Shown here one piece after another: positions 29,003-38,271 of a stretch of DNA of 64,000 nt. Source of the DNA: Polyangiaceae bacterium (GTDB lineage: Bacteria > Myxococcota_A > Polyangia > Polyangiales > Polyangiaceae); the NCBI GenBank assembly GCA_013214025.1, contig JABSRN010000041.1, positions 62,001 to 126,000 on the forward strand, read 5' to 3'. The notes beneath the pieces were generated by a model. That model made no database searches. It was not told the origin of the DNA and saw only the letters and a program-made list of their open reading frames with translations. The position numbers were made by a program, and so were the translations under genes. Position 1 is the stretch's first letter. Each line of letters begins with the position of its first letter.

Positions 29003-29576
29003 TTGATGTCCCTCCAGACCTCAACGGTCGGCTCGAGCCGACCCCCTTTGTCGCCCGCGTAAATCGCGAACAGGCAAATTTAAAACTCGCCTGAAGCCTA
29101 CCGCGTACTACGCGGATTGCTCAAGCAAAGTCGCTGAACTAGCTGCGTCAACTAAGTGCTTACGCAAACAGCACTGGCTGGGCTGGCCTGGTGGCCGCAC
29201 AGGGGCGGGGGCTGGGCCTCGATGTGTTCGGGTTCAGTGAGTGAAAATCTCCCTCGTCGCTATCGGACAAATGTCCGGAATCCGAAATAGCCGCAGGATC
29301 AGGCGTTCTTGATGGTTGTGAATCCGGCGCTAGCCCGCACTCATTGGATTAGCGCCCGCTCCACGGGCACTGGTCAGTTGGCCGGCTTGGCTCGTCGGTT
29401 CGGCTGGCGGGACATGACGCCTAACCTAAGCCACCTCCGAGGGGACTGGACTGCTTGACACCCTGCTTTCAGGGTCACTACCTTGCGCTCGCCCGGAGCA
29501 GGTTCACGCCTGTTTCCACCCATTGATGCAGTGCTGCGTACTCCCGGGCCGGCACCGCCCCGAGGTCACAAATCGA
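29003..29576. other. Divergent intergenic region upstream of nuoE
   Basis: About 570 bases between the zinc-ribbon gene and nuoE. GGTCGGCTCGAGCCGACC at 29026-29043 is a perfect 18-base palindrome in the leader of the zinc-ribbon gene, perhaps an operator or leader hairpin. A sigma70-type promoter for the nuo operon is proposed at 29455-29484. I see no gene; the frame from 29523 to 29576 is the upstream extension of nuoE. Confidence 0.5.
29455..29484 (+). promoter_or_regulatory. Candidate sigma70 promoter of the nuo operon
   Basis: A perfect -35 TTGACA (29455-29460), 18-base spacer and -10-like TACCTT (29479-29484), about 90 bases before the nuoE start. The -10 is a poor match, so confidence is moderate. 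Confidence 0.45.
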
Positions 29577-30059
29577 ATGGCTTTTGCCCTGAGCGATGAG
29601 CGCATTAAAGAATTCGCAGAAATTCTATCGCGCTATCCGAACAAGATGGCTGCCTGCATCCCAGTGCTGCACCTTTGCCAAGAAGCGAACGACAACTGGG
29701 TCTCCGATGAGGTGACCGAATACGTCGCCGAAAAGCTGGAGCTGAGCGCCGCTCATGTGAAAGGTGTCGCCACCTTTTACTCGCTGTTTAACCGCGAGAA
29801 GCCTGGCAAGCATCAGGTCTGGGTGTGTCGGACTCTGTCCTGCGCCCTGCGCGGTAGCGAAGGAATCATTTCCCATTGCGAGAAGCGCTTGGGGATCAAG
29901 ATGGGGGACACCACCCCGGACGGAAAGATCACGCTGCGCACCGCGGAGTGTTTGGCAGCCTGTGGCACGGCTCCCGCGATGCAGGTCAACAAAGAGTACC
30001 ACGAGAACCTTACCCCCGAATCGGTGGACGCCGTGCTCGACAAGCTCCTGGCTGACTGA
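29577..30059 (+). CDS. nuoE: NADH-quinone oxidoreductase subunit E (NuoE)
   Basis: 160 residues from ATG 29577 (GAGGT ten bases upstream); an in-frame ATG at 29523 would add 18 residues that look non-coding. It holds the N1a 2Fe-2S cluster of the NADH-input arm of complex I: CRTLSCALRG gives the first Cys pair and AECLAACGTAPAMQVN the second. The helical N-terminus (IKEFAEILSRYPNKMAAC) is typical. First gene of the nuoEFJKLMN operon; NuoF follows after 31 bases. Confidence 0.96.
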   Translation: MAFALSDERIKEFAEILSRYPNKMAACIPVLHLCQEANDNWVSDEVTEYVAEKLELSAAHVKGVATFYSLFNREKPGKHQVWVCRTLSCALRGSEGIISHCEKRLGIKMGDTTPDGKITLRTAECLAACGTAPAMQVNKEYHENLTPESVDAVLDKLLAD

Positions 30060-30090
30060 GCCGTCATTGAGACTTGGCGGATAGACTACG

Positions 30091-31434
30091 ATGCTGAAGA
30101 GAACAGACTACCTTACGAAGAATTACGGCAAGCCTGACGGCTGGACCCTAGCTGCTTACGAAGCAGGCGGTGGATATCGAGGCGTTCGCAAGGCGCTGAT
30201 GATGTCGCCGGGCGCTGTGGTCGAAGAGACCAAGAAGGCCCACATCCGCGGACGTGGCGGTGCCGGTTTTGACTGCGGAATGAAGTGGAGCTTCATGCCG
30301 AAGCCCAGCGACAAACCACATTATCTCGTGGTGAACGCTGACGAAGGCGAGCCCGGTACCTTCAAGGACCGGACGATCATGGAGCAGAACCCCCATGCTC
30401 TGATCGAGGGCTGCATCATCGGCTGCTACGCCATGGGTGCCCACACTTGTTACATTTACGTACGCGACGAGCTTCACCTTTCCAAAGAGCGACTTTGGGC
30501 AGCCATTGAAGAGGCAAAGGCCAAGGGCTACCTAGGGCAGCGCCCCTTCGGCAAGACCTACGAAGTGAATATTTTCGTTCACACGGGCGCCGGGGCGTAC
30601 ATCTGCGGAGAAGAAACGGCGCTGCTGAACTCGTTGGAAGGCAAGCGAGGCCAGCCCCGCCTCAAGCCGCCATTTCCCGCCCAGTCCGGCGCGTTTGGCA
30701 TGCCCACCACCGTTAACAATGTCGAGACATTGGCGATTGTGCCGACGGTGTTTCAACTCGGAGGCGATGCCTTCAGTAAGCTGAGTGCTTTGCATCACCT
30801 CAATGACGGCGGCACGCGACTGTTTGGTGTCTCGGGTCATGTGAAAAAGCCTGGCGTCTACGAGTGCGCGGTGGGGCTCACCCTGCGGGAACTCATCTTC
30901 GATCTCGGCGGCGGAGTGCTCGATGACCGACCGCTATTGGGCGTCGTACCCGGCGGCTCGTCGTGTCCGGTGCATCTGCCGGACGAGATCGTGAACATCC
31001 CCGGAGAACGCTTCGAAGCCTACAACGGCAAGTGCATTCTCGACATTCCTCTGGGTGTGGATACCTTTCGCGGCGCGGGCAGCATGCTCGGGACTTGCTG
31101 CGCCATTGTCATGAGCGACGCCGTCGACCCGGTGTTGGCGCTGCAAAACCTCATGCACTTCTACCGGGACGAATCCTGCGGTCAGTGCACGCCCTGTCGA
31201 GAGGGTTGCGGCTGGCTCGAGCGGGTCGTCAATAAGATCGTCGCCGGCGAAGGCACCATGGCCGAGCTGGACCAGTTTCACGAAATCGCCACCAACATCA
31301 CCGGCAGCACGATCTGCGCCTTCGGTGACGGCGCGGCCCAGCCCGCCCTGGCGTTCATCCGGCGCTACCGGAAGAACTTCGAGGATTACATCAACAATGG
31401 TGCTGCTACGCAGACCAGGAGCCTCAGCCTATGA
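30091..31434 (+). CDS. nuoF: NADH-quinone oxidoreductase subunit F (NuoF)
   Basis: 447 residues: the NADH- and FMN-binding subunit with the N3 4Fe-4S cluster. RGRGGAGFDCGMKWSFMPK and the following NADEGEPGTFKDR form the FMN/NADH site, GAGAYICGEETALLNSLEG follows, and CGQCTPCREGC near 372 plus a Cys near 416 (STICAFGDGAA) ligate N3. Length is standard. The stop overlaps the nuoJ start (ATGA), so translation is coupled; nuoG, which normally follows, is absent. Confidence 0.97.
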   Translation: MLKRTDYLTKNYGKPDGWTLAAYEAGGGYRGVRKALMMSPGAVVEETKKAHIRGRGGAGFDCGMKWSFMPKPSDKPHYLVVNADEGEPGTFKDRTIMEQNPHALIEGCIIGCYAMGAHTCYIYVRDELHLSKERLWAAIEEAKAKGYLGQRPFGKTYEVNIFVHTGAGAYICGEETALLNSLEGKRGQPRLKPPFPAQSGAFGMPTTVNNVETLAIVPTVFQLGGDAFSKLSALHHLNDGGTRLFGVSGHVKKPGVYECAVGLTLRELIFDLGGGVLDDRPLLGVVPGGSSCPVHLPDEIVNIPGERFEAYNGKCILDIPLGVDTFRGAGSMLGTCCAIVMSDAVDPVLALQNLMHFYRDESCGQCTPCREGCGWLERVVNKIVAGEGTMAELDQFHEIATNITGSTICAFGDGAAQPALAFIRRYRKNFEDYINNGAATQTRSLSL

Positions 31435-32048
31435 CCCCCGGGTCCGCACTCTTTATCGTGTCAGCCGTCCTCTGTTTGGCGGGCGCTGTCACCACGGTGG
31501 TCTCCCGTAGCCCCGTGCGCGCGGCCATGGGCCTGCTCGGTACCATTCTTGGAATTGCTCTGCTGTTCCTCAAGCTTCGCGCTGAGTTCCTCTCCGCGAT
31601 TCAGCTGATTGTCTACGCAGGCGCGGTAGTGGTGTTGTTCGTATTCGTCATCATGCTGCTGGGCACAGACGCGGGCAGCGAGCCCGAGTCCGAGGCCCGT
31701 TCGAAAATTGCTCCTCCGCTCGCGGGCGGAATGTTCCTCGCCTTTGCTACGGCGCTGTTCGGCTTGCTGGGCGGGGCCATCAAGACCCCGACGGCGTTTA
31801 CCGTGCCCAGCCCGGACCACGGCACGATTGAAGCCGTCGGCACGGAGATGTTTCAGAACACTCTGGTTCCCTTCGAGCTGACCACGGCGCTGCTTATCGT
31901 TGCTGTCGTCGGCGCCATCGCCGTCGGTCGAGGCCGTCAGGGGCAAAAGCCCAATCAGCGAGTCATCAAGAACCCTCAGGACTTCTACGTCGGACCCGTC
32001 ATGGAGCGCGACAACGTGAGCCAGCCCGAGCCCAAGGAGAGTGTCTGA
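31431..32048 (+). CDS. nuoJ: NADH-quinone oxidoreductase subunit J (NuoJ)
   Basis: 205 residues with five predicted membrane helices (ALFIVSAVLCLAGAVTTVVS, AAMGLLGTILGIALLFLKL, QLIVYAGAVVVLFVFVIMLL, GGMFLAFATALFGLLGGA, ELTTALLIVAVVGAIAVGR). The third helix, with IVYAGAVVVLFVFVIMLLG, holds the conserved pi-bulge region of the family. It is part of the membrane arm of complex I. A hydrophilic tail carries NPQDFYVGPVMERDN. The ATG overlaps the nuoF stop by four bases. Confidence 0.95.
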   Translation: MTPGSALFIVSAVLCLAGAVTTVVSRSPVRAAMGLLGTILGIALLFLKLRAEFLSAIQLIVYAGAVVVLFVFVIMLLGTDAGSEPESEARSKIAPPLAGGMFLAFATALFGLLGGAIKTPTAFTVPSPDHGTIEAVGTEMFQNTLVPFELTTALLIVAVVGAIAVGRGRQGQKPNQRVIKNPQDFYVGPVMERDNVSQPEPKESV

Positions 32049-32362
32049 TGCTCCCCGGATCAGTAGTCGAACACTACCTCGCGCTCTCGGGCGCCATCTT
32101 TACGCTGGGGGCCATGGGGTTCCTCATGCGTCGCAACGTATTGATTCAGTTGATGAGCATCGAGCTGATGCTCAATGCGGTCAATCTGCTGCTCGTTTCG
32201 TACAACCGAGTCCACGCCGGCAACATGACCGGTCAGGTATTTGCCTTCTTTGTTATCGCCGTCGCCGCAGCTGAAGCGGCTGTCGGTTTGGCCATTGTGC
32301 TTTCTTACTTCCGCATCCGCGGCACTGTTCAGTCCGATGAGGCGGACTCGCTGCGCCACTGA
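32048..32362 (+). CDS. nuoK: NADH-quinone oxidoreductase subunit K (NuoK)
   Basis: 104 residues, three membrane helices, normal NuoK length. The two buried glutamates used in proton translocation are in IQLMSIELMLNAVNLLLVSY (first) and VIAVAAAEAAVGLAIVLSY (second). The ATG shares one base with the nuoJ stop (TGATG). Confidence 0.97.
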   Translation: MLPGSVVEHYLALSGAIFTLGAMGFLMRRNVLIQLMSIELMLNAVNLLLVSYNRVHAGNMTGQVFAFFVIAVAAAEAAVGLAIVLSYFRIRGTVQSDEADSLRH

Positions 32363-32384
32363 GCGGCAGTCCTGAATAATCGAT

Positions 32385-34901
32385 ATGGATATCTTTCCGA
32401 CTAACGACTTTACGCTTCTGGCGGTCATCCTGAGCTTCCCGCTCATCGGTGCCTTCGTCAACGGCGTCTTCGGCAAGCGATTAGGCAAAGAAGCCGTCAC
32501 CTTGATGGCCTTGAGTGCTATCGGCGTGCCGTTTTTGGCATCCGTCGCGACCTTCTCCAAACTGCTCGACATCCGCGCGGTACAGCACGCAGCGGGCGCC
32601 GGCAGCGCCGACCATGTTGAACAGGGCGCACGCCTCTATTGGCACGCCTGGGACTGGCTGGACTTGGCCTGGACCGGAGGGGAGACCACCCTGAGTGTCG
32701 CTTTTTCTGTGGATGGTTTGAGCGGCATCATGGCCCTCGTGGTGACCGGCGTCGGTTTCTTGATCCACGTCTACTCGACCTCCTACATGGCGGACGACCC
32801 CGGCTATCACCGTTTCTTTTCGTACCTGAACCTGTTCATCTTCTCGATGCTCGTACTGATCCTCGGCGACAGCCTGCCGGTCTTGTTTGTCGGTTGGGAA
32901 GGCGTGGGCCTCTGCAGCTACTTGCTCATCGGTTTCTGGTTTCAGGACGACGCCAACGCTGCCGCCGGCAAGAAGGCCTTCTTGGTCAACCGCATCGGCG
33001 ACTTCGGTCTGCTGGTCGCCATGGCGCTGCTGCTCCGTTACACCGGCTCCCTGAGCTGGGAGGGCATCGAAGCCAACAGCGGCAACCTGCCCAACCAGAT
33101 CCTCAAGGTCTGGCAGATGCCGGAAGTTCTCGCCTTTAGCTTTTTGCCTGATTGGTTGCTGCTCAACGAGCCCACCATCGCTACCCTGATCGGCCTGTGT
33201 CTCTTTTTGGGCTGCGCCGGTAAGAGCGCCCAGCTGCCGCTCTACGTTTGGTTGCCAGACGCCATGGCCGGCCCGACTCCGGTTTCCGCCCTCATCCACG
33301 CGGCCACCATGGTCACCGCCGGCGTGTACTTGGTCTGTCGCCTCAGCTTCCTGTTCGTGCTCAGCCCGGCCACGATGTTCACCATCGCAATGACCGGAGC
33401 GCTTACCGCGGTATTCGCGGCGACCATCGCCTTCGTGCAGAACGACATCAAGAAGGTGCTCGCTTACTCCACCGTGAGTCAGCTGGGTTACATGTTCTTG
33501 GGTGTCGGCGTAGGCGCTTTCACTGCCGGCTTCTTCCACGTGCTGACTCATGCCTTCTTCAAGGCCTGCCTCTTCCTCGGCGCCGGTTCGGTGATTCACA
33601 CGATGCACTCGCGAATTCACGATACGGATTCGTCTCAGGACGGGCGGAATATGGGCGGGCTGCGGGCGTACATGCCGGTGACCTGCGTGACATTCTTTGT
33701 GTCGTGCCTGGCCATCGCAGGCGTCTTCCCCCTCAGCGGGTTTTTCTCCAAGGACGCCATTCTCATCGGCGCGCTAACGAACACCGTTAGTTCGTCGGGA
33801 GGCGTTCACGACGCCTTCGTATGGCCTGAATGGGCGGGATCCGTGCTGTTTGGCATGGGTCTCATCGGCGCTGTGATGACGGCGTTCTACATGGCCCGTC
33901 TGTACATCATGATCTTCGAAGGCGACTTCAAGGGTTGGAGTATCGTCGCCGGTTGGAAAGAGCCTGAGGGGCACGACCACCACGACGATCATGGTGACGG
34001 CGACGAGCCTATCGACGGTCCGGCTCCTCACGAGTCACCCAACGCTATGACGGCGCCGTTGCTCGTCCTGGCAGCGTTGGCTGCGGTTAGCGGCTTGCTC
34101 AGCGCGCATGATTTGGGCACCCATTGGCTCGATCATTGGTTGGACCCGGTATTCGCCAATGCGCTCGGAAACGTTGTTACGGACGCAGAGGCCGGCAGCA
34201 TGGTGCCGTATATCGCGAGTGCGGCGACATTCGCCGGGCTTGGCGGCGCTTACTTCGTCTACGTAATGAGGGGTGGCGATCCCGCCCGCGAGCTGGCCGA
34301 AAAGGTCCCCGCCCTGCACGAACTCATTTACGACAAGTGGCGTATTGACGAGCTGTACGACGAACTCTTCGTCGCGACCCTCGAAACTCTCGCCGAAGTC
34401 AGCATCTTCCTCGACAAATGGGTCGTGGACGGCATCATCGCCCGCGCCAGCGCGGGAGTAGTAGCCGGAGCCGGCTCGGTACTTCGCCTATTCCAGGTCG
34501 GCCGGGTCCAAGCCTACGCCGCTGCCATGGTCATCGGCTCCGTGGCATTCGCCGGCTTCTTCCTGCTGCCCCACGCTCGGGTTCAGTTAAATGGCGACCT
34601 CTCCAACGGCCAGTACGAATTGGTCGCGTCTCCTGGGCTCGGCTACCAGTACAGCTGGGACCTCGATGGAGACGGCGAATTCGCCGAAGACGACTTCGCC
34701 GACAAGAACACCGCGAACATCCGACTGAACACGGGCAAAACCGTCGAGGTCGGGCTCAAGGTGCGAAACGCGTTCGGCTTGATCCGAACAGTGACCATTC
34801 CGCTCACGCGGCCAGATCCGTCAGCTGACGAAACCGAGACGGCAGGGGTACAAGGCCGCGCCACCGGACAATTGGCTGACATCGAAGGGAGGCAGCGATG
34901 A
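32385..34901 (+). CDS. nuoL: NADH-quinone oxidoreductase subunit L (NuoL) with PKD-like C-terminal extension
   Basis: 838 residues, about 220 more than the Escherichia coli protein. The antiporter-like core is intact: SVDGLSGIMALVVTGVGFLI, LFVGWEGVGLCSYLLIGFWF (Glu of the proton path), KSAQLPLYVWLPDAMAGPTP and AATMVTAGVYLVCR, and SQLGYMFLGVGVGAF. A His/Asp-rich cytosol- or periplasm-facing loop (PEGHDHHDDHGDGDEPIDG) is near 527-550. After the last helix (AAAMVIGSVAFAGFFLLPHA) comes a 110-residue tail, about 729-838, with a PKD-like core YSWDLDGDGEFAEDDFADKN, then RLNTGKTVEVGLKVRN. The tail should face the periplasm. The stop overlaps nuoM (ATGA). Confidence 0.95.
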   Translation: MDIFPTNDFTLLAVILSFPLIGAFVNGVFGKRLGKEAVTLMALSAIGVPFLASVATFSKLLDIRAVQHAAGAGSADHVEQGARLYWHAWDWLDLAWTGGETTLSVAFSVDGLSGIMALVVTGVGFLIHVYSTSYMADDPGYHRFFSYLNLFIFSMLVLILGDSLPVLFVGWEGVGLCSYLLIGFWFQDDANAAAGKKAFLVNRIGDFGLLVAMALLLRYTGSLSWEGIEANSGNLPNQILKVWQMPEVLAFSFLPDWLLLNEPTIATLIGLCLFLGCAGKSAQLPLYVWLPDAMAGPTPVSALIHAATMVTAGVYLVCRLSFLFVLSPATMFTIAMTGALTAVFAATIAFVQNDIKKVLAYSTVSQLGYMFLGVGVGAFTAGFFHVLTHAFFKACLFLGAGSVIHTMHSRIHDTDSSQDGRNMGGLRAYMPVTCVTFFVSCLAIAGVFPLSGFFSKDAILIGALTNTVSSSGGVHDAFVWPEWAGSVLFGMGLIGAVMTAFYMARLYIMIFEGDFKGWSIVAGWKEPEGHDHHDDHGDGDEPIDGPAPHESPNAMTAPLLVLAALAAVSGLLSAHDLGTHWLDHWLDPVFANALGNVVTDAEAGSMVPYIASAATFAGLGGAYFVYVMRGGDPARELAEKVPALHELIYDKWRIDELYDELFVATLETLAEVSIFLDKWVVDGIIARASAGVVAGAGSVLRLFQVGRVQAYAAAMVIGSVAFAGFFLLPHARVQLNGDLSNGQYELVASPGLGYQYSWDLDGDGEFAEDDFADKNTANIRLNTGKTVEVGLKVRNAFGLIRTVTIPLTRPDPSADETETAGVQGRATGQLADIEGRQR

Positions 34902-36727
34902 ACGCGCTCCGGGACGCAGGAATCGAAATGATTCCTTACTTGATCGCATTCGTCGTGGGCTACCTAATGCCCTGGCGCAAAGAGTGGTTCGAGCGCTTTG
35001 CAGTGGGTTCGGTTGCGGCTTTGAGTGTCGCCTTCGTGCTCGGTCTTTGGCCCGACAAAGCTGTTGAGGTCGCCGAGACACGACCGGAAGAGTGGGGCCA
35101 CCTGCTTAATCTCATCGTGTTCTTGCCGCTGATTGCGGCCATCGCGGTGGTTTTCCTGCCTCGCCAAAGCCCGAAGCTGCTCAAGCAATTCACGATGGTG
35201 GTGCTGGGCGTAGACTTCCTGGCGAGCCTGGCTCTGTTGGGCGTGCCCATGAGCGAAGGCTGGCATTTCCAGTACGTGACCGAGTGGGTCCCGAGCCTGG
35301 GCATTCGCTACCACGTCGCCATTGACGGCATCTCGGTCTGGCTCGTTCTGCTCTCGACGTTGAGCACGCCCATCGCGCTGCATGTCAGTTTCGGCTCCAT
35401 CAAGAAACGCACCAAGGAGCTGTGCTTCGCGTTTTTGATGCTGCACGGAGCTATGATGGGGGCTTTCGTCTCCCTCGATCTGTTCCTCTTCTTCGTCTTC
35501 TGGGAGCTGATGCTCGTTCCGATGATCTTGATCATCGGAATCTGGGGCGGCGTCGAGAAGATCAAGGCGTCCTACAAGTTCTTCCTCTACACAATGGCCG
35601 GCAGCATGATGATGCTCGCGGCTATCCTGTACATGGCGTGGGTCTTCCACTCTATCGAGGGCTACTGGACCTTCGACTACCTCGCGCTCAAACGCCTAGT
35701 CCTGCCCGAGGACGCTGCCTTCTGGTGCTTCGCTGGATTCGCCTTGGCGTTCCTGATCAAAGTGCCCATGTTCCCCTTCCACACGTGGCTGCCGGACGCG
35801 CATGTTCAGGCCCCGACGGGAGGCTCCATCATTCTGGCCGCTGTGCTGCTTAAATTGGGCACCTACGGTTACATCCGCTTTTGCATGGGCATGTTCGAGG
35901 GCCCGGCCTGGGAAGCGAGCGCCACTTTGGCGGGCGTTGCAGTGGCGGGCGGTATTTTCTACGGCGCGCTGTGTGCGTGGAAACAGAGCGATATTAAACG
36001 TCTCGTGGCGTACTCATCGGTCGCCCACCTGGGCTTTGTGATGCTCGGCTTGTTCTCTGGAACCCACGCGGGAGTTTCCGGCGCGATCGTGCAGATGATC
36101 AACCACGGCATCTCGACCGGAGCGCTGTTCCTTCTAGTCGGCGTTATCTACGACCGGCGCCACACCCGTCAGATTGCTGACTTCGGTGGTCTCGCCAAGG
36201 TGATGCCTGTCTACACGGCATTGTTCGTTCTGGTCACGATGGCCAGCGTCGGCGTGCCCGGTACCAACGGCTTCGTCGGTGAGTTCATGGTCATCATGGG
36301 CACGATGGTTTCCGATAGCCTAGGCCGCCACGCGACCCCCGCGGCGGTCGGCGCCTCCTTTGGCGTCATCTTGGCCGCGCTCTACATGCTGTCGATGGTT
36401 CAGCGAGTCTTCTTCGGACCGCTGAACAATCCCAAGAACGAGAAGCTCACGGATATCAACAGCCGCGAACTGGTGGCTGTGGCCCCTCTCGTCGCGCTAA
36501 TCTTCGTCTTCGGTTTATTCCCGAACATCCTGCTCAGCCGGATGAACGATTCGGTCGGCGCCACCGTGCGTCACCTCGCTGAAGGACGTATCGCTTACGA
36601 GGCGCACGCCGGCGCGACCACCGCCAAGTTGCGACCCAAGCGGGGCGGACCCTGGGAGGCGGGGCATCCGAGCCCACCACAGGTGGCTGACGTTGCCGTT
36701 GCCCTCAACGCAGGAGCCGACAAATGA
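34898..36727 (+). CDS. nuoM: NADH-quinone oxidoreductase subunit M (NuoM)
   Basis: 609 residues, antiporter-like proton-pumping subunit. HVAIDGISVWLVLLSTLSTP, FVFWELMLVPMILIIGIWGG (conserved Glu), KVPMFPFHTWLPDAHVQAPT and SSVAHLGFVMLGLFSGTHAG are family landmarks. It is about 100 residues longer than the Escherichia coli protein, mainly through an N-terminal extension with an extra helix (MIPYLIAFVVGYLMPW) and a hydrophilic C-terminal tail (AKLRPKRGGPWEAGHPSPP). Overlaps nuoL and nuoN by four bases each. Confidence 0.96.
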   Translation: MNALRDAGIEMIPYLIAFVVGYLMPWRKEWFERFAVGSVAALSVAFVLGLWPDKAVEVAETRPEEWGHLLNLIVFLPLIAAIAVVFLPRQSPKLLKQFTMVVLGVDFLASLALLGVPMSEGWHFQYVTEWVPSLGIRYHVAIDGISVWLVLLSTLSTPIALHVSFGSIKKRTKELCFAFLMLHGAMMGAFVSLDLFLFFVFWELMLVPMILIIGIWGGVEKIKASYKFFLYTMAGSMMMLAAILYMAWVFHSIEGYWTFDYLALKRLVLPEDAAFWCFAGFALAFLIKVPMFPFHTWLPDAHVQAPTGGSIILAAVLLKLGTYGYIRFCMGMFEGPAWEASATLAGVAVAGGIFYGALCAWKQSDIKRLVAYSSVAHLGFVMLGLFSGTHAGVSGAIVQMINHGISTGALFLLVGVIYDRRHTRQIADFGGLAKVMPVYTALFVLVTMASVGVPGTNGFVGEFMVIMGTMVSDSLGRHATPAAVGASFGVILAALYMLSMVQRVFFGPLNNPKNEKLTDINSRELVAVAPLVALIFVFGLFPNILLSRMNDSVGATVRHLAEGRIAYEAHAGATTAKLRPKRGGPWEAGHPSPPQVADVAVALNAGADK

Positions 36728-38271
36728 TTGATCTCTTCATCGCTCTGTCCCCGCTGCTGACCGTTGGATTCGGTGGCCTACTTTTGATGTTGGCTGAAGC
36801 CCTCGGCAAGCCGGCAAACAACACTGGCATGAGCCCCGACGGCGCAGTTGTCGTTGATGCTGGGGCGGGCCGCTCGGAAGAGCTGGGCCTTTTGGCGACG
36901 GTGATCCTGTTTTCAGGTGCCGCATCATCCATGGGCGTTTGGCTCGCGGATCCGGCGACTCTCGGCGTAGAGCTCGTGTCGCCCTGGCTGCAGGTTGACC
37001 GCTACTCGCTCTTTTTTAGCTTCATCCTGTGTATTTCGGGCGGCCTCTGCACCCTGTTGGGCGGCGGCTACCTGGAAGAGCACAAGATCGACCGCGGTGA
37101 GTTCTTCACGCTGGTGGTGTTTTCGACTGTGGGCGCTATCGCCCTTGGCTTCGCCGGTGACTTGCTCACCGTGTTCGTTGCCCTGGAGACGATGTCTCTC
37201 GGCGTCTACTGCATGATCGGCCTTCGACGCTCGAGCCCCCGCGCTGGAGAAGCCGCGCTCAAGTACTTCCTGCTTGGCAGCTTTGCGGCAGCCATCATGA
37301 TGTTTGGAGCCGCTCTGCTCTACGCCGCCACCGGTCACACGGATTTGGCGGGCATCGGAGCCTTCGTCGGTGGGCTCGGTGGGGAAGCCAGCGGAGAAAC
37401 TGCCATGGTCATCGTGGGCATGCTGCTCATGCTCATCGGTATGGCCTTCAAAATCAGCGCCGTACCTTTCCACATGTGGGCACCTGACGCCTACGAAGGC
37501 GCGCCGACTCCGACCACTAGCTTCATGGCAGCGGCCGTGAAGACTGCGGCCTTCGCGGTGCTGCTTCGGATCCTACTCATCGCCTTCGGCGACCCACGTC
37601 TCATGAGCTGGGGCGCTGGTTGGCCGCCGGTGATGGCGTGTTTGTCCGTCCTCTCGATGACCATCGCTAATGTGATCGCCGGCCGTCAGTCGTCGGTGAA
37701 GCGCATGCTTGCCTACTCCTCGATCTCTCACGCCGGCTACCTGCTCATGGGTGTCTGCGCGGCCATGCGACTCCCGGAAGAAGCCTCCGCCAGCGTGATG
37801 TTCTATCTAGCCGGTTACTGCATCTCGACCATCGGCGCTTTTGGCGCGCTGATCCTCTGCGGCAGTCGCGGCAAAGAAGCCGTCAGCTATGCCGATCTCG
37901 CGGGCATCGGACGCCGCCACCCGGCAGCGGCAGCGGCCTTCGCGCTTTTCGTTATCTCGCTGGCGGGCATGCCGCCCACGGCTGGCTTCTTCGGCAAGCT
38001 CTATGTCTTCCGAGCGACCATCGACGCGGAGCTCTATTCCTTGGCCATCATCGGTCTGCTCAACAGCATCGTTGGCGCCTACTACTACATGAAAGTATTG
38101 GTGTTCATGTACATGCGCGAGCCGATTCCGGGAGCGCCGATCGCGATTCCCATGCGCTCTTCGATGGTGGTCTCCGCGCTGATCATCGCCGCAGCCCTAG
38201 TGGTCGCCATCGGCGTACTGCCGGGGGCACTGCTCGAGATGGCGGCGGTAGCGGCCGCAGCGCTGTCTTAG
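36724..38271 (+). CDS. nuoN: NADH-quinone oxidoreductase subunit N (NuoN)
   Basis: 515 residues, the third antiporter-like subunit. TVFVALETMSLGVYCMIGLR has the key Glu, FKISAVPFHMWAPDAYEGAP the Lys and the DAYEGAP loop, and SSISHAGYLLMGVCAAM the third motif. Normal length for the family. It ends the operon; the 144 bases after it show no strong terminator. Confidence 0.96.
   Translation: MIDLFIALSPLLTVGFGGLLLMLAEALGKPANNTGMSPDGAVVVDAGAGRSEELGLLATVILFSGAASSMGVWLADPATLGVELVSPWLQVDRYSLFFSFILCISGGLCTLLGGGYLEEHKIDRGEFFTLVVFSTVGAIALGFAGDLLTVFVALETMSLGVYCMIGLRRSSPRAGEAALKYFLLGSFAAAIMMFGAALLYAATGHTDLAGIGAFVGGLGGEASGETAMVIVGMLLMLIGMAFKISAVPFHMWAPDAYEGAPTPTTSFMAAAVKTAAFAVLLRILLIAFGDPRLMSWGAGWPPVMACLSVLSMTIANVIAGRQSSVKRMLAYSSISHAGYLLMGVCAAMRLPEEASASVMFYLAGYCISTIGAFGALILCGSRGKEAVSYADLAGIGRRHPAAAAAFALFVISLAGMPPTAGFFGKLYVFRATIDAELYSLAIIGLLNSIVGAYYYMKVLVFMYMREPIPGAPIAIPMRSSMVVSALIIAAALVVAIGVLPGALLEMAAVAAAALS

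Follow-up and report, generated by a model that had tools for sequence, protein, structure and literature searches.

The core subunits of complex I are among the most conserved membrane proteins. In the DNA analysed here, a stretch of 64,000 nucleotides from a Polyangiaceae bacterium (the window), the gene for one of these subunits, NuoL, continues well past the point at which the protein ends in known complexes. What this additional piece is, how it became part of NuoL and what it does there is the question that this locus raises.

Reading frame, fold and conservation of the NuoL tail

In the window, nuoL is a single unbroken open reading frame (32385-34901, + strand), which encodes an antiporter-like complex I subunit of 838 aa with a C-terminal extension. 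The protein scores above the curated cut-offs of the NuoL equivalog models: NCBIfam PRK06590 matches with 654.7 bits (cut-off 556), but only over residues 11-727, and TIGR01974 with 635.6 (cut-off 407.5), likewise ending at 727; the Pfam families Proton_antipo_N and _M are also found. Since the family match stops at residue 727, residues 729-838 (34569-34898, 110 in-frame codons) are an in-frame extension, as the original prediction had it when it placed the end of the core near residue 728 with about 110 codons to follow. That the protein does not end after the last transmembrane helix (TM16), as it does in known complexes, is a variation and no bar to its being NuoL. The sequence YSWDLDGDGEF, which had first drawn attention to the tail, was located at residues 756-766. 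The next gene, nuoM, starts at 34898 and overlaps the nuoL stop codon (ATGA).

A loop rich in His and Asp had been named as a second oddity of this NuoL. The loop exists (residues 529-551 between TM13 and TM14; 33969-34037, +), but sequence comparison shows it to be ordinary: a length-variable stretch of this kind before the conserved HESP motif is also present in a tail-less NuoL (G195/L109, 14 His). As a common and variable element it was dropped as a special feature, and it is separate from the finding on the tail.

Two parts of the tail have to be distinguished. Residues 729-811 (34569-34817, +) form a predicted PKD-type beta-sandwich domain, and residues 813-838 (34821-34898, +) a variable, putatively disordered end. 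AlphaFold2 with 28 tails in the input gave six strands (pLDDT 86.8, pTM 0.72). In the model of the full-length protein the strands comprise residues 733-738, 743-748, 755-759, 776-780, 786-794 and 800-808 and follow directly after TM16, whereas the last ~26 residues (813-838) have a pLDDT below 50 and are predicted to be disordered. The beta-rich stretch expected at the end of the protein is thus predicted within the folded part (733-808) but not at the very end, and the opposing case, that the tail might be unstructured, disagrees with the sandwich that AlphaFold predicts there.

The best matches of this predicted sandwich among solved structures are PKD domains, as originally proposed. A Foldseek search of the PDB gave PKD1 of Vibrio Epp as the top match (6aem, E 9.7e-4, TM 0.61/0.68) and PKD1 of PrtV as the second (4l9d, TM 0.61/0.70), followed by other PKD and Ig-like domains. 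Only the first match has an E-value below 0.001, so that the search makes the fold class clear, with combined evidence behind the PKD label. By sequence, the window tail alone matched no Pfam family up to E 10 and nothing in the PDB, and a 25-row tail profile gave only sub-threshold Ig-like and other beta matches in the PDB, so that on sequence alone the PKD call would stay open. Relatives and profiles add to this. The tail of one relative (G140) exceeds the Pfam cut-offs for PKD_4 (28.7 versus 27) and PKD (23.6 versus 23.5), and weak Pfam PKD matches occur in 4 of 25 close relatives' tails (best E 0.0036). When the tail profile was aligned by hhalign with five PKD domains of the same genome that had been chosen by Pfam, 85.9% was reached (E 5.3e-6, residues 2-82 of 96); the controls reached at most 2.5% (60 column-shuffled profiles) and 2.8% (reversed profile). 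With eight PKD domains the value was 95.4%, three of the eight having been chosen by the tail profile itself. Outside NuoL, the tail profile matched three proteins in 284 genomes of the phylum, all of them PKD proteins according to Pfam. Together, the relatives' tails, the profiles and the predicted fold support the assignment of the NuoL tail as a true PKD-family domain.

The tails share the pattern P-H-A ... G-x-Y ... A-x-P-G-x-G-Y-x-Y-R-W-D-x-D-G-D-G ... V-x-L-x-V-x-N-A-F-G ... R-P. In the alignments the most conserved patch is AxPGxGYxYxW (residues 748-758; 34626-34658, +), which comprises the end of strand B, the BC loop and strand C; A748, P750, G751, G753, Y754, Y756 and W758 are invariant in all 27 full-length NuoLs aligned. 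The FG loop reads NAFGL in the window (residues 795-799; 34767-34781, +), and NAFGR is conserved in relatives. Next to the BC patch lies the DLDGDG loop (residues 759-764; 34659-34676, +), which is of the acidic DxDxDG type found in Ca-binding loops. The full DxDxDGxxD motif is present in 10 of 28 tails and the shorter D-x-[DN]-x-DG in about half; Sorangium and Minicystis lack it. An obligate Ca-binding domain was therefore rejected as a general rule. Averaged per loop, the frequency of the majority residue is 0.94 for BC, 0.76 for FG, 0.55 for EF, 0.45 for C-E and 0.40 for AB.

Mean sequence identity is 41% in the tail domain and 60% in the NuoL core. In close pairs, the domain has a dN/dS of 0.18-0.61 and the core one of 0.07-0.42; after residue 811 the ratio rises to ~1.1-1.5 among Sorangium strains and is lower in three other pairs. 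Judged by these substitution rates, the folded domain is kept by purifying selection, and the end segment drifts in Sorangium.

Distribution, origin and other additions to complex I

A search with the whole NuoL within the same family gave a match in 98 of 98 genomes, and the alignment runs through residue 799 or beyond in at least 80 of them, as counted from the match table. On closer reading, three intact NuoLs that seemed tail-less (L145, L146 and L147) proved to have divergent tails; almost all intact NuoLs of the family have the tail. It is also present in complete genomes, namely those of Sorangium cellulosum So ce26, So0157-2 and So ceGT47 and of Minicystis rosea. The tail profile matches 42 of 284 genomes of the phylum, 39 of them in the same order; the three matches elsewhere are not NuoL and belong to the PKD proteins by Pfam. 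Three members of the family or order that the profile missed (G025, G157, G220) have a tail that is visible by eye.

NuoL frames are ~850-1000 aa long in the order, intermediate in the other orders of the class and mostly 650-720 aa elsewhere in the phylum. When the sequences were read directly, a PKD-like NuoL tail was seen in three further families of the class (f8, f9, f10); family f11 has a short, different tail unrelated to PKD, and f12 has none. In the NuoLs read from elsewhere in the phylum the protein ends at TM16 and the PKD tail was not seen. Thus the range of the tail is the class that holds Sorangium, which we take to be Polyangia in GTDB terms, and not all Myxococcota; a trait of the whole phylum can be discarded. 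The proposal to look for the extension in Myxococcota NuoLs in general was borne out across most of the class but fails in the rest of the phylum.

In a maximum-likelihood tree of the NuoL core, built without the tail columns, the 30 tail-bearing rows make up one side of a single branch (support 87/82). Tail presence requires one change on this tree, compared with a mean of 16 after shuffling. Since the tail-bearing NuoLs form one clade, the simplest reading of the tree is a single gain, in an ancestor of most of the class, with inheritance from then on.

The extension has been elaborated in several ways. In families f2, f3 and f5, the PKD-like domain is enlarged by an insertion of ~60-150 aa that separates the YRWD strand from the final VEVRNAFG strand, and in a number of loci (L099, L100, L104-L108, L088 and L090) the insertion has a recurring stretch of the IRPNGA/RRNDA type; possibly it is a second small domain. 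The NuoLs of f11 (L095-L097) have no PKD domain; TM16 is followed there by a different tail of 50-90 residues (NPTVSSLEPSAVHRV...), which may be an extension that has degenerated or been replaced. In a further NuoL-like frame (L125, G250:C9:900-3700; 897 aa), the antiporter core is split after about residue 460 by a stretch of ~300 residues that look like beta-propeller repeats (GxxGGTLLQWDG).

Other subunits of this complex I carry additions as well. The window contains nuoE-F-J-K-L-M-N (29523-38271), and nuoD-G-H lie on another contig (L143). The genome has a single nuoD and a single nuoH, both on contig C163, and one complex I. NuoG is short (550 aa) and matches only the first part of its family model. 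TIGR01972 matches only residues 70-558 of NuoM (34898-36727, +). Judged by this start and by relatives, NuoM has an N-terminal extension of ~67 residues (34898-35098, +), an extra hydrophobic hairpin resembling two transmembrane helices. The hairpin is conserved in relatives of the Polyangiaceae type and absent in L088 and L090 despite their PKD tails; in Sorangium the loop of the NuoM extension is very rich in His and Asp. NuoH (L143:7684-9495; in its own genome contig C163, 73683-75494) has 603 aa where ~330-370 are usual, with a hydrophobic insertion of ~140 residues between RIGPDR and GLRLLGLLHPAADGLK, close to the region where quinone usually enters. Among 189 genomes of the phylum, the insertion was found in seven other genomes of the family, with one weak match elsewhere. 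Both the NuoM hairpin and the NuoH insertion are less widespread than the PKD tail. Such additions suggest that core subunits tend to gain mass in this lineage.

Position in complex I and possible roles

In known complexes NuoL has 16 transmembrane helices and both its termini are periplasmic. In the window NuoL, the full-length model places TM16 at residues 709-727 (34509-34565, +), where the family model also ends, with R701 and R707 on its N-terminal side, which fits a course from the cytoplasm to the periplasm. The tail directly follows this helix and thus should be periplasmic, a prediction drawn from the direction of TM16 and the known topology of NuoL. A long helix (residues 642-703; 34308-34493, +; low confidence past ~670) precedes TM16 in place of the lateral or transverse helix (HL). 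From the tip, HL passes along ND5, ND4 and ND2, which it seems to hold together like a strap (PMC9802314), and it reaches into the proximal module (PMC7447434). Because TM16 follows HL at its far end, we infer that the domain hangs not under the body of NuoL but under NuoN, the subunits next to it and the proximal pump module, a long way down the membrane arm from the pump of NuoL itself.

The docking or protein-contact site of the original prediction is plausible. We lean, by a modest degree, towards the interpretation that the PKD domain, gained once and kept by selection, serves as an accessory (supernumerary) domain in fused form, which would dock on complex I and act as a brace. Fused right after TM16, it would stand in the periplasm below NuoN and the proximal pump module, and its membrane-proximal conserved loops BC (AxPGxGY) and FG (NAFG) would sit against the adjacent membrane subunits on their periplasmic side. 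Docked in this way, it could fix the TM16 end of the HL strap and stabilise the membrane arm or aid its assembly. In a sandwich of the Ig type, the N-terminus, the BC loop and the FG loop are found at one pole. As the N-terminus of the domain is anchored at the membrane, BC and FG should lie on the membrane side; this argument uses textbook Ig topology and not the coordinates of the model. Given that BC and FG are the most conserved loops and that the outward DGDG loop is dispensable, docking on complex I is favoured over docking of an outside partner. Yet the conservation of BC and FG may instead reflect maintenance of the fold, and a tightly docked brace must tolerate the insertions of ~60-150 aa inside the domain in f2, f3 and f5. 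We also count against a brace that complex I of E. coli and Thermus works without a PKD tail.

Less probable, though not far-fetched, is that the domain offers a periplasmic docking site at its outward pole for a separate partner, which might be another respiratory complex (giving a supercomplex), a lipoprotein, an assembly factor or cytochrome c. In favour are the general use of PKD domains as interaction modules, the occurrence of the acidic, outward DxDxDG loop in many members and the different elaboration of the domain between families. However, the outward loops are the least conserved ones and DGDG is lost in Sorangium and Minicystis; moreover, no co-inherited partner gene was found, and the genes beside the nuo genes in the window are unrelated. 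The more far-reaching version, in which the tail docks another respiratory complex or a cytochrome and a class-specific bacterial respirasome is built through a domain joined to a core pump subunit, is a speculation to which we give little weight.

A neutral ornament is unlikely, too; in this reading the fused PKD folds but serves no particular purpose, and it persists simply by doing no harm. This would agree with its absence from E. coli, Thermus and the remainder of the phylum and with its lower mean identity compared with the core. It does not fit the finding that, within a deep clade, almost every intact NuoL has retained the domain with its invariant residues, nor a dN/dS well below 1 in the domain while the adjoining end drifts.

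Very unlikely is a tether of complex I to peptidoglycan or periplasmic polysaccharide, after the manner of PKD or Ig-like domains on secreted glycan-acting proteins. Foldseek matches do include PKD and Ig domains of surface glycan-binding proteins, and PKD is common among the secreted proteins of this genome. In such glycan-acting proteins, however, the sandwich mostly acts as a spacer; the tail showed none of the known sugar-binding residues, and its conserved patch is predicted to face the membrane.

That a frameshift or misassembly joined a separate PKD gene to nuoL, the artefact envisaged at the outset, has no point in its favour and can practically be dismissed, because the same in-frame fusion with a conserved junction occurs in complete isolate genomes (Sorangium cellulosum, Minicystis rosea) and dozens of independent assemblies.

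Comparison with known systems

NuoL is a proton pump, and whether its lateral helix and TM16 act as a strap or as a coupling rod has long been disputed. A folded domain at the end of the strap, gained once and kept across most of the class, would be a natural experiment on this question, and in the culturable Sorangium strains it could serve as a handle for tagging or pulling the TM16 end. It would also be an example of a minimal bacterial complex I that gains accessory mass without new genes. A literature search, with most subscription papers outside its scope, returned no paper that mentions a PKD domain together with NuoL or NADH-quinone oxidoreductase; as far as we found, the parts are known and their combination is undescribed.

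Compared with PKD domains in general (PF00801 and PF18911; 6aem, 4l9d and Clostridium ColG), the tail is alike in its predicted beta-sandwich, in the Y-x-W that is followed by an acidic glycine loop and in the V-x-L-x-V-x-N/D-A-x-G strand and turn. It differs in that it is compact, has an AxPGxGY BC loop of its own and, in the window member, lies below the reach of Pfam. Whereas PKD domains usually occur in large secreted proteins, this one is fused to a respiratory membrane subunit.

With NuoL, Nqo12 and ND5 (E. coli 3rko, Thermus 4he8 and other solved chains) the window protein shares the antiporter core, the lateral helix and TM16. None of these chains has the tail domain, and their best alignments to the window NuoL end at residue 725 or before, in agreement with the original prediction that NuoL of well-studied complexes lacks such a domain.

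Lineage-specific additions to core subunits are also known from E. coli complex I, where C-terminal extensions take up positions that supernumerary subunits have in other species; they are suggested to replace such subunits and to stabilise the complex (PMC8357420). These additions, the C-terminal tails of NuoB, NuoI and NuoF and a loop of NuoG (PMC8357420), lie in the cytoplasmic arm, and the tails are extended peptides of 22-45 residues, whereas the NuoL tail is predicted to be globular and periplasmic. By analogy, the tail also resembles the intermembrane-space subunits of the mitochondrial complex such as NDUA8 (PMC7447434), in that both would bring extra mass to the P side near the proximal pump module. 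However, the subunits of the NDUA8 type are separate CHCH proteins of unrelated fold, whereas the PKD domain is part of NuoL itself.
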